DNA from: an uncultured Candidatus Nitrosopumilus sp.
GTDB taxonomy: Archaea; Thermoproteota; Nitrososphaeria; Nitrososphaerales; Nitrosopumilaceae
Length of the DNA stretch: 64,000 bases
Reading direction: 5' to 3'
Assembly: GCA_905612485.1 (NCBI GenBank)
Contig: CAJQSE010000026.1
Span: 40,050-104,049, forward strand
The position numbers and the translations under genes are program-made. Below are positions 11,074 through 43,236 of this stretch, piece by piece (the first letter of the stretch is position 1; every line of letters starts with the position of its first letter). The notes below the pieces were generated by a model. That model worked only from the letters and a program-made list of their open reading frames with translations. It did not search any database and had not been told where the DNA came from.

Positions 11074-12042
11074 TTAATATCCTATTGAATAAATTGGTTT
11101 TTTACCATTCATTCCTAAAATTAAATTCTTGGTAGTAATTTCTGCCATTTTGATTCTAGTTTCTTTTGTAGAACTTCCTACATGTGGTGCTAATACAATA
11201 TTTTCTAATTTAAGAAATGAGTGGTTTTTTTTAATTGGTTCTGTTTCAAATACATCTAATCCTGCACCTCCAATTATTTTTAGTTTTAATGCTACTACAA
11301 GATCTTTTTCATTTACAATCTTACCTCGTGATGTATTGATCAAAAATGCTGTTTTTTTCATTTTTTTAAAAATTTTCATATCAAACATTTGATTGGTTTC
11401 TTTTGTATGTGGAACATGAATCGAAATAATGTCACTTTGAGTAATTAATTTGTCAAATGTAGTATATTTCACTCCTAATTTTTTTTCCTCTATTTTAGAA
11501 ATTTGTTTTCTATTGTGGTATATTATTTTCATATCAAATGCTTTTGCTCTTTTTGCAAGTGTTTTTCCAATTCTACCTAAACCAATTATGCCTAAAGTTT
11601 TACCTTGAAGGTCTAATCCCACATAATCATATGCTCCATAGATTTGTCTCCATTTTCCTTTTCTAATTATTCTGTCACCTTCTGAAATTCTTCTTAACGA
11701 ATCAATCAATAATGCAAATGCCATGTCTGCAGTTGCATCTGTTAAAACTTCTGGAGTATATCCAACTCTAATTTTCTTATCTTTTGCAAATTTTGTATCG
11801 ATATGATCATACCCGACACTAAATGTACTAATTACTTTGAGATTTTTTGCTGATTGAATTATTTCTTTATTAATTTGATCATATGGAAAACAGATTAAAC
11901 CATCTACTTGTTTAATTTTAGATTTCAATGTACTTTGAGGTATGGGTATTTTTCCTGTATGGATTTCAACTTGAAATTTCTTTTTTAATTCTTTTAATGC
12001 AAAATCATGTAATGTTCTTGTAAGAAATATTTTTTCTTTCAT
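11074..12042 (-). CDS. D-isomer-specific 2-hydroxyacid dehydrogenase
   Basis: TLGIIGLGRIGKTLAKRAKAF, LINTSRGKIVNEKDLV, GGAGLDVFETEP...LAPHVGSST. Confidence 0.92.
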   Translation of the reverse strand: MKEKIFLTRTLHDFALKELKKKFQVEIHTGKIPIPQSTLKSKIKQVDGLICFPYDQINKEIIQSAKNLKVISTFSVGYDHIDTKFAKDKKIRVGYTPEVLTDATADMAFALLIDSLRRISEGDRIIRKGKWRQIYGAYDYVGLDLQGKTLGIIGLGRIGKTLAKRAKAFDMKIIYHNRKQISKIEEKKLGVKYTTFDKLITQSDIISIHVPHTKETNQMFDMKIFKKMKKTAFLINTSRGKIVNEKDLVVALKLKIIGGAGLDVFETEPIKKNHSFLKLENIVLAPHVGSSTKETRIKMAEITTKNLILGMNGKKPIYSIGY

Positions 12043-12094
12043 CAGTCTTCAGATTTATCTCAAACCATTTATACGATTTCTTTGTATCTTCATT

Positions 12095-12241
12095 ATGTCT
12101 TCTAAGATTGAAGAGGAAGAAGAATTTGCTATTTGTGTGGATTGTGGCAATTCTATTGAAAAATGTATATGTGTATGTCCTTATTGTGGTGAACGTGATA
12201 AATGTGAATGTGCATTATTTGATGCGGCTACAGGTGGATAA
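12095..12241 (+). CDS. Cys-rich microprotein (48 aa, 8 Cys), putative metal-binding
   Basis: MSSKIEEEEEFAICVDCGNSIEKCICVCPYCGERDKCECALFDAATGG*; below ORF-track cutoff. Confidence 0.65.
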   Translation: MSSKIEEEEEFAICVDCGNSIEKCICVCPYCGERDKCECALFDAATGG

Positions 12242-40309: not shown

Positions 40310-41194
40310 ATGGATTTACAAAAATTCATTGAGACACAGGAATTGTCTAATTTTCCTATTGGATTGGGTGGATGTAGAACTATGGATTATTTTTTTGATT
40401 CTTGTGATTATGATCTTATGGTTTTTGATGAAAATTCTTCTAATAACCAAATTATTTCATTTGAGAATAATTTAATTACTATCCATCATGCATCACTATC
40501 TGAAACAAATACTAAAAAACTTCTTCAATATGATAAATTGAATATTATTCAAGATGATTCTTGGAATTTGAAAATATTTCTTTCTAAAATTTCTCAAAAG
40601 AGAACTTTGCTATTTTCTGATTTTGCAAAAAACTCTTTAATTGAATCTCTTTTTTGTTGTCAAAAAACTAAGGATGGCATTGACAATAATGATGTATTTG
40701 CAGCATGTTGGCAAAAATGTGCTTCTTATTATTTAGCTGATGCCTTATCTTCTTTAAATAATAATCCATCAAGCCCTTCTCACATGCTTGGTTCACTTCG
40801 TAAATTTAAAAAAAATTCTATCAATAATCATATTTCTAGCATTTTGGATACCATTGGAATTGAAAGAGCTACTCCCACATTATTAGAACGTATGTTAAAA
40901 TCTACTATTGGTTTTTCTGATTTAGTTGAGAAAAATAATCATTCTGAATTAATTCAACAAAAATATGATTTTTTCTTAAAAAATTCAATGCTTTCTGATT
41001 GTTACTTTTATCTTGGATATGTCAACAAAGAAAATTTTATTCTAATTAAGGATGAATTGAATAGAAAGCAGGATCTAATTCATATTCTGAAAATTGCCTT
41101 TGACATTGAATCTAATTCAAATCTTCTTTCACAACAAGCTAAAACCATTCAAACTAGTTGTAATGATATTCTTGAGATAATTTCAAGTACATGA
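40310..41194 (+). CDS. Nucleotidyltransferase-like hypothetical protein
   Basis: GLGGCRTMDYFFDSCDYDLMVFDE resembles the NTase G(G/S)...DxD motif; helical C-terminal half. Confidence 0.5.
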   Translation: MDLQKFIETQELSNFPIGLGGCRTMDYFFDSCDYDLMVFDENSSNNQIISFENNLITIHHASLSETNTKKLLQYDKLNIIQDDSWNLKIFLSKISQKRTLLFSDFAKNSLIESLFCCQKTKDGIDNNDVFAACWQKCASYYLADALSSLNNNPSSPSHMLGSLRKFKKNSINNHISSILDTIGIERATPTLLERMLKSTIGFSDLVEKNNHSELIQQKYDFFLKNSMLSDCYFYLGYVNKENFILIKDELNRKQDLIHILKIAFDIESNSNLLSQQAKTIQTSCNDILEIISST

Positions 41195-41244
41195 TTCAGT
41201 ATTATGCACTAACCTTTTAAAACAAGTGATGTTCTTGGTTTATC

Positions 41245-41391
41245 ATGGTAGATCAAGCATGTGGTTGCGAAGCTGACAGCGGCGACCCAGATTACTCATG
41301 TGACTGTGCAATGCAAGGAGCTTGCATATGCAGTGCAGATTGCAAATGTACAACTGACGTTTGTAAAGAAGCTGTTTCACAAATGAATTAA
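41245..41391 (+). CDS. Metallothionein-like Cys-rich microprotein (48 aa, 9 Cys)
   Basis: MVDQACGCEADSGDPDYSCDCAMQGACICSADCKCTTDVCKEAVSQMN*; four CxC motifs. Confidence 0.75.
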   Translation: MVDQACGCEADSGDPDYSCDCAMQGACICSADCKCTTDVCKEAVSQMN

Positions 41392-41427: not shown

Positions 41428-41595
41428 TTAATCGTCTTCTTGCTCAAAGCCCCAAGATTTTACTAATTCTTTTTGGAACTTGTCTGCTTGTTTTTCATCT
41501 AATGGAAATCCACAATTTTTATGAGTAGGAACAACTGTCATTCCATCAAGTTTGAATTCTACTTCAAACAAGTGAACTTTAGAACATTCGCACAT
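41428..41595 (-). CDS. Small hypothetical protein (55 aa)
   Basis: MCECSKVHLFEVEFKLDGMTVVPTHKNCGFPLDEKQADKFQKELVKSWGFEQEDD*. Confidence 0.6.
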   Translation of the reverse strand: MCECSKVHLFEVEFKLDGMTVVPTHKNCGFPLDEKQADKFQKELVKSWGFEQEDD

Positions 41596-41718: not shown

Positions 41719-43236
41719 TTGAAGACGATATTATCAATTCCAATTATTCTTGTATTATTTTTAGGAATAACTATGACTTCATCTGCATATGGACAGATTG
41801 AAGCTGGTGGTGTAAGTTCTGATACGCTCCCAAAAGGAACTACATGGTATGCTGGTGAGGGACTCAAACAAGGTGATTTTTTTTCTTATTCCACATGTTT
41901 TGTTGATTACAAAGAATGTACAAATTTTGAGATGGACTTTTGGATTAAAGGTGATAAAAAAGTTGGTAGTGAAACCAAGTGGTTAGCTGAAGTTGTTGTT
42001 TATGATGGAAATAAAGTAATTGTTGGTGAAATGGAGTTGGGTAAAATTGCTCCAGAACCTACTGGTGGCACTCCTGAATTGGGTATTTACCGTGGTGCAT
42101 TCAAGTCCTCTATTGCTTGGCTATCTGCTTTTGCAACATCTGATGGAAGTTCTGGAGGGAAAGGTCCTAAAGGATTTGATGAAGTATCTTGGGGTAAAAT
42201 TGGAAACATTGGTGGTCAACAAGTTGTTCCATTAGCTATTGAAACTATTACAGTTCCTGCAGGAACTTGGGAAACTGTAATAATGTCTTGGAAAACAGGA
42301 GGGGCTGTAAGTAAAGTTTGGATTGCAGATGATTTTCCATTTCCAATAAAAGCTAAAACCTACACTCATGTTGCTGAAGGTATTCCTCCACCAGAGTATG
42401 ATTTTCAATTGTTAAAGTATAAAGAAAATGTACAACAATCTCCATTTGTTGGAATTGAATCTACTGTAGATGATCTAATTGCTGCTGGATGTGACACTGA
42501 TATTGAAAAGGAAGTAATTCATAAAAAATCTACCACGAACTTCAAATATCAAGTTCATATTTTCTATGGACCTGAATATCCAGTTCAAGGATGTGAGATA
42601 CAATTTCTAGTTAATTTCTTAAAATTTAGTGATGAAACTGAATTTTTGAACCAAGTACAATATGATATTTTTGTTGTAGATGATAAAGGCATTCGAACAA
42701 GATCTATTGCACAAGAAGAGGGTAGACAATTCCTTTACTCTCCATCTGGTCAAGCTCTAATTGATTTTGTTATTAAAGAGGATCCTGGAACTGCAAATTA
42801 TGTAATTTGGGTTTATGGCTTAGCCCCAAATGGAATTGTTCCATCTGGACCTTCTGATTATCTCCAAATAGAGGTTCCAATTTATGCTTCAGATGGAAGT
42901 ATACCTGTTGCAAAAATCCCCTCTTGGATTAAAAATAATGCCGGTTGGTGGGCTGATGGCACCATAGATGATAAATCATTTATACAAGGAATTCAATTTT
43001 TAATTAAAGAAAAAATAATGAAAATTCCAAAAACCACCCAAGGAACTGGGGGAAGTTCTAACGACATCCCCTCTTGGATTAAAAATAACGCCGGCTGGTG
43101 GGCTGATGGCACCATAGATGATGAATCCTTTATCCAAGGAATTCAATTTTTAATTAAAGAAGGAATTATGAAAGTTCCACAACCTTACCAGAGTAATACT
43201 TCTACTGGTGCTGAACCTCCAGCCTGGTATAATTAG
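41719..43236 (+). CDS. Secreted protein with C-terminal duplicated 'PSWIKNNAGWWADG' repeat
   Basis: N-terminal signal-like segment; two near-identical ~37-aa units. Confidence 0.85.
   Translation: MKTILSIPIILVLFLGITMTSSAYGQIEAGGVSSDTLPKGTTWYAGEGLKQGDFFSYSTCFVDYKECTNFEMDFWIKGDKKVGSETKWLAEVVVYDGNKVIVGEMELGKIAPEPTGGTPELGIYRGAFKSSIAWLSAFATSDGSSGGKGPKGFDEVSWGKIGNIGGQQVVPLAIETITVPAGTWETVIMSWKTGGAVSKVWIADDFPFPIKAKTYTHVAEGIPPPEYDFQLLKYKENVQQSPFVGIESTVDDLIAAGCDTDIEKEVIHKKSTTNFKYQVHIFYGPEYPVQGCEIQFLVNFLKFSDETEFLNQVQYDIFVVDDKGIRTRSIAQEEGRQFLYSPSGQALIDFVIKEDPGTANYVIWVYGLAPNGIVPSGPSDYLQIEVPIYASDGSIPVAKIPSWIKNNAGWWADGTIDDKSFIQGIQFLIKEKIMKIPKTTQGTGGSSNDIPSWIKNNAGWWADGTIDDESFIQGIQFLIKEGIMKVPQPYQSNTSTGAEPPAWYN
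42918..43178 (+). repeat. Two ~111-nt direct repeats, period 150 nt (42918-43028, 43068-43178)
   Basis: ccctcttggattaaaaata...gccgg.tggtgggctgatggcaccatagatgat.aatc.tttat.caaggaattcaatttttaattaaaga in both copies. Confidence 0.9.

Follow-up and report, generated by a model that had tools for sequence, protein, structure and literature searches.

Metallothioneins are defined as proteins of fewer than 100 residues with 15-30% Cys arranged in CC or CxC motifs (PMC9781358). The class is further marked by thiolate clusters that hold several metal ions and by a part in metal homeostasis or detoxification. The nine-Cys β domain holds 3 Zn(II), Cd(II)3 or 6 Cu(I) (PMC9846682). The copper metallothionein of Neurospora crassa (1t2y) contains 25 aa with seven Cys in the arrangement CxC-x5-CxC-x3-CxC-x2-C. 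In prokaryotes, SmtA/BmtA (PF02069) and MymT are small cytosolic Cys-rich proteins; the SmtA type includes a zinc-finger fold, and the copper metallothionein MymT was discovered as an unannotated short ORF (PMC7558416). Csp (DUF326, PF03860), a cytosolic Cu(I) store in a copper-monooxygenase organism, is a pre-folded four-helix bundle (PMC7558416). No report of an archaeal metallothionein was found in the open-licence literature, though subscription journals may contain an earlier description. Among ammonia-oxidizing archaea (AOA), N. maritimus is copper-tolerant though it has none of the known Cu-detoxification genes, and the basis of this tolerance was left open; AOA are also published as encoding no Cu efflux (PMC9723733). 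Both Csp and CopZ are present in N. viennensis (PMC7785015).

The window, by which we mean the whole 64,000-nt stretch of DNA that was analysed, contains a small Cys-rich gene in a syntenic block, the features of which are as follows.

40310..41194, + strand: upstream neighbour, 294 aa, without Pfam family; its place is kept at nearly all stand-alone loci
41207..41228, + strand: conserved promoter element CACTAACCTTTTAAAACAAGTG; TATA core at 41215-41222, centred ~26 nt upstream of the ATG
41245..41391, + strand: metallothionein-like microprotein, 48 aa, nine Cys, CGC-x10-CDC-x5-CIC-x3-CKC-x4-C
41428..41595, - strand: downstream neighbour, 55 aa (CEC...C), conserved, also in the order's other ammonia-oxidizing families
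41719..43236, + strand: downstream neighbour, ~505 aa, predicted secreted, which completes the syntenic block; start codon provisional

Translation of 41245-41391 (+) gives MVDQACGCEADSGDPDYSCDCAMQGACICSADCKCTTDVCKEAVSQMN, and the 48 residues with nine Cys, arranged as CGC, CDC, CIC and CKC plus one more C, are exactly as the earlier note had claimed. The gaps between successive Cys are 1, 10, 1, 5, 1, 3, 1 and 4 residues. An ORF with nine Cys per 40 aa was obtained in none of 60 first-order simulations of the 64,000-nt window, nor was one with four serial CxC motifs; the real window holds a few further Cys-rich open frames, mostly non-coding by appearance. We also note a small Cys-rich ORF at 11975-12241 (+), ending in ...EEEEEFAICVDCGNSIEKCICVCPYCGERDKCECALFDAATGG, which resembles a small zinc-ribbon protein. 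Across 86 distinct coding sequences of the microprotein, the pooled dN/dS is ~0.08, and ~0.12 in close pairs. The frame is under strong purifying selection, and the 41245-41391 ORF is a real gene. Conservation extends to non-Cys residues, which include EA..GDP of the first loop, the D of CDC, MQG, the D preceding CKC, and KE beyond the last Cys. In divergent genera the Cys pattern is kept and the first loop is shorter by one residue. Many of the non-Cys residues are nearly invariant, so that the function may exceed bulk metal chelation in specificity.

With its 48 aa, 18.8% Cys and four CxC motifs, the microprotein falls within the size, Cys content and motif range of the metallothionein class. 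The metallothionein likeness proposed in the earlier note is upheld at the level of sequence, where it comprises size, Cys content, CxC motifs, the number of nine Cys, and a spacing shared over six Cys with the β domain and the Neurospora protein. This spacing, [CxC]x5[CxC]x3[CxC], is identical in the microprotein, fish metallothionein (1m0j) and the N. crassa copper metallothionein (1t2y). The vertebrate β domain (PF00131) likewise has nine Cys with CxC-x5-CxC-x3-CxC in exact register. The microprotein differs from it by an extra CGC ~10 residues upstream, by an end formed of a single last Cys rather than the closing CxC..C..C, and by its invariant MQG and acidic residues. It differs from the N. 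crassa protein in length and Cys number and in ending ...-x4-C rather than -x2-C. The microprotein profile scores 26.2 against the fish β peptide, a value that none of 200 shuffles reach (shuffle maximum 21.2). The score against the N. crassa peptide is reached by 2 of 200 shuffles, and therefore no homology is claimed. Human MT1A (PDB 9q7p) gives a gap-free alignment at E = 4.8.

The curated families do not take in the module. The PF00131 (Metallothio) search stays below its cut-off, with a best E of 0.015, matches in 3 of 21 members and the window protein not reported. PF02069 gives no match to the window protein up to E = 10, nor to the 21 members up to E = 1. The microprotein, presumably cytosolic, resembles SmtA/BmtA and MymT in being a small Cys-rich prokaryotic protein; the zinc-finger fold of the SmtA type is a further difference. 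DUF326 likewise has no Pfam match to the microprotein. Its proposed role is like that of Csp, but 48 aa are too short for a four-helix bundle. Neither Pfam nor NCBIfam holds a family that includes the module, and Rfam gives no match in the region. Three further leads were rejected. A GULLO2-like match (E ~1) is Cys-driven noise, and the UBR boxes of UBR1/UBR2 (PDB, E ~0.2) are out of register with the CxC pairs. Haloarchaeal plasmid matches (44%, 36 aa, E = 0.2), which lie beside copper-related genes, are due to chance and represent the YHS/TRASH domain of an ArsP_1 permease. The likeness to the β domain is a functional analogy and probably reflects convergence; judged by its sequence, the module appears to work like a metallothionein, outside every curated metallothionein family tested.

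The nearest named relatives are Nitrosopumilus, in agreement with the ammonia-oxidizing archaeal origin supposed in the earlier note. In the genus, 36 of 36 other genomes searched hold the module as a stand-alone frame of 45-76 aa and/or as the end of a long ORF, usually of ~460 aa. Profile A1, built from 21 sequences and run on 398 genomes across the phylum, matches all 63 Nitrosopumilaceae genomes, with the stand-alone form in 62 and the long form in 37. It matches none of the 335 genomes outside the family, including those of same-order families. Of 250 Nitrosopumilaceae genomes, 228 have the module in one form or the other; among high-quality genomes the count is 127 of 131, and 22 of 22 genera are represented, the family label being taken from named contigs among the matches. 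Together with the dN/dS values this decisively confirms the conservation of the frame, which the earlier note had named as one of the checks on its proposal. The window protein and its counterparts in 227 further family genomes share CGC-x9/10-CDC-x5-CxC-x3-CxC-x4-C, usually with MQG after CDC (profile A1). A scan of 84,980 species yielded 190 encoding loci. The best 80 of these belong without exception to Nitrososphaerota or to unnamed archaeal MAGs, mostly with Nitrosopumilaceae names. Locus L099 is labelled Nitrososphaeraceae, yet has the Nitrosopumilaceae gene order and is thus probably mislabelled. Genome G351 (L190, L191) carries three stand-alone copies; two of these, separated by ~4.5 kb and oppositely oriented, have almost the same sequence. 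Viral contigs and phage records contain no relatives of the microprotein.

Beyond the claims of the earlier note, the analysis establishes this family-wide distribution, a conserved promoter, and a second form of the module as the tail of a membrane protein. In a bit over half of the genomes sampled (37/63), a ~460-aa protein predicted to have a signal peptide and one TM carries the nine-Cys module as its C-terminal tail. From the N-terminus, the predicted signal peptide is followed by an extracytoplasmic domain and the single TM; basic residues and a linker then lead to the nine-Cys module. In a 454-aa example, residues 1-26 and 314-342 form the sole hydropathy peaks, and all nine Cys of the protein lie within the tail. 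The positive-inside rule would place this tail in the cytosol. In the standard-length sequences on which the count was made, 74 of the stand-alone form and 21 type-B tails, every one of the nine Cys is invariant. The copy of the membrane protein in the window's own genome is broken off by a contig end ahead of the tail. AlphaFold gives pLDDT values of 54 for the microprotein and 32 for the tail protein, too low for the models to serve in a fold search. An open frame of 217 aa at L080, from a GC-rich relative, was considered as a further fusion and is instead a frame spuriously extended upstream.

For the extracytoplasmic domain Pfam has no matching family; the domain is family-wide, and divergent versions occur in two other families of the order. 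The C-terminal slot that follows it is variable, carrying a type B tail (EEAACGC...), a type A tail (microprotein-type with Met, MVDQACGC...), a plain RGSMPKGWKP-type end, or another domain. The last case is observed in L135 and L143 (genomes G033 and G021), where the Cys tail is replaced by KMINV.I.V.NID...GE.W.NEIVN.YADM..., so that the slot takes unrelated domains. In a tree of the extracytoplasmic domain, with weak support at several deep forks, 11 type A tails group together and one further type A sequence stands apart among type B. As the sequences read, the tail appears in about two lineages to have been swapped for a microprotein-type sequence that brings its start Met along. The simplest reading would be recombination between the microprotein locus and the tail, and such exchange makes the two forms probably equivalent in function.

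At nearly all stand-alone loci, the order of the 294-aa gene, the microprotein, the 55-aa gene on the opposite strand and the ~505-aa gene is kept, with almost constant distances. Nitrosopelagicus-type loci are missing the 55-aa gene at that place, and in one genome of this type its homologue is relocated elsewhere. In Nitrososphaeraceae-type relatives homologous flanking genes occur together and the microprotein is absent, the homology of the 294- and 505-aa flanks being assessed visually. Within an older gene block, the Nitrosopumilaceae line thus gained the module, or other lines lost it. Several features of the neighbours may be recorded. The 294-aa protein, whose sequence is conserved throughout the family, has GC(R/Q) and C(D/C)(Y/E)D as conserved motifs close to its start. 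Its homologues in the Nitrososphaeraceae-type relatives appear to occupy the corresponding position, and the gene that comes next there is a conserved zinc-ribbon-like one, RYASGQKRCQICEIFIKWDGLWCPCCGYRLRTKPRNLKYKAKLRAR (L178 1639-1908 (-), L179, L181, L182). The Cys-containing 55-aa protein at 41428-41595 (-) has the sequence MCECSKVHLFEVEFKLDGM..., and the ~505-aa protein has two near-identical terminal repeats, IPSWIKNNAGWWADGTIDD[K/E]SFIQGIQFLIKE, and is without a Pfam family.

Ninety upstream regions have TACTAACCTTTTAAAAYAAGTA or variants in common. The TATA core, ~26 nt before the ATG, predicts a leaderless microprotein mRNA with a putative transcription start at the ATG itself. In seven genomes the element occurs essentially once per genome, at the microprotein gene, and a shared regulon was accordingly rejected.

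Csp and CopZ were sought by their DUF326 and HMA domains in 61 Nitrosopumilaceae genomes, nearly all at least 95% complete. DUF326/Csp is present in none of the 61. HMA domains are found in 17, always in frames of 812-845 aa, so that none of the 61 genomes has a stand-alone CopZ. DUF326 and short HMA ORFs are present in other families of the order. The relation between Csp/CopZ absence and presence of the module is correlative and represents one lineage and one gain. Since 17 of 61 genomes also have an HMA ATPase, the module is not a strict substitute. With Csp and stand-alone CopZ absent and HMA ATPases mostly absent, the module is best read as a thiolate buffer for cytosolic Cu(I)/Zn(II). 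We also note that the HMA-bearing proteins of ~820 aa (e.g. in G317, G063 and G128) have the size of P1B-type ATPases and disagree with the published claim of an absence of Cu efflux from AOA.

In the proposed mechanism, nine cytosolic thiolates would enclose one metal-thiolate cluster, as in the 9-Cys mammalian β domain, with a content of most likely ~4-6 Cu(I) or 3 Zn(II). The free protein would be a soluble buffer and store, keeping cytosolic Cu(I) bound in cells whose ammonia-oxidation and respiratory chain is rich in copper. The tail form would set an identical site at the membrane's inner face, where it could hold or pass on metal. That the module binds a metal-thiolate cluster is considered quite likely; the chances that copper is its main physiological metal appear evenly balanced. 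The account as a whole, a new Nitrosopumilaceae-specific metallothionein-like family acting as a copper buffer, is one toward which we lean slightly. The invariance of the nine Cys in both forms argues for it, as do the β-type spacing, the class-level features, the exchange between tail and microprotein, the lack of Csp and stand-alone CopZ, and the copper tolerance of N. maritimus. Against it, EA..GDP, the D of CDC, MQG and KE are unusually conserved for a metallothionein, which suggests a partner or a defined fold; the syntenic neighbours include no copper gene, and two other ammonia-oxidizing families do without the module. A more far-reaching proposal seems rather doubtful, namely that a metallothionein arose separately in Nitrosopumilaceae by convergence on the eukaryotic β Cys pattern, and that its two interchangeable forms, a soluble copper buffer and an inner-face membrane-tethered copper dock, would replace the Csp/CopZ of other ammonia oxidizers.

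An alternative that we regard as unlikely is a zinc or general Zn/Cd soft-metal thiolate protein, which would be a zinc buffer or cadmium guard with no special copper role. His serves as a zinc ligand in some bacterial metallothioneins, and a His stands between CDC and CIC in most stand-alone sequences; however, it is missing from the window protein and nearly all tails and is thus not an essential ligand. The nine-Cys β-type arrangement takes Zn(II)3 or Cd(II)3 (PMC9846682), and the conserved neighbourhood contains no copper gene, whereas the copper dependence of the organisms and the missing Csp and CopZ favour copper.

Less probable still is a metal-responsive adaptor or sensor, in which the conserved non-Cys residues would dock a partner and the free or tail form, on being loaded with metal, would signal to a membrane complex. 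The strong conservation of these residues, the location of the tail on a one-TM protein with an extracytoplasmic domain, and the exchange of the tail for quite different C-termini are in keeping with such a role. Neither a partner nor a DNA-binding feature was found, and with a promoter element essentially unique to the gene no regulon is visible.

A non-metal role as a thiol redox buffer, guarding the cell from reactive oxygen or nitrogen species, appears highly improbable; the nine thiols per 48 aa and the lack of catalase in AOA (PMC9723733) would suit it, but the exact Cys spacing and the other residues are rigidly conserved, and a thiol pool needs neither. An iron-sulfur or single structural zinc-finger domain has equally little likelihood, as the Cys-only ligands and weak matches to Cys-rich zinc domains are set against the lack of the CxxC pairs typical of zinc ribbons and ferredoxins, the lack of a Pfam family, and PDB matches that are out of register.

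Marine Nitrosopumilaceae are abundant, copper-dependent nitrifiers, and in the copper-buffer account the module provides a concrete, near-universal candidate for their missing intracellular copper handling. If it binds metal, it would constitute an archaeal metallothionein family, none having been reported in the literature searched, and would also be an instance in which a metallothionein domain forms a membrane protein's cytosolic tail.
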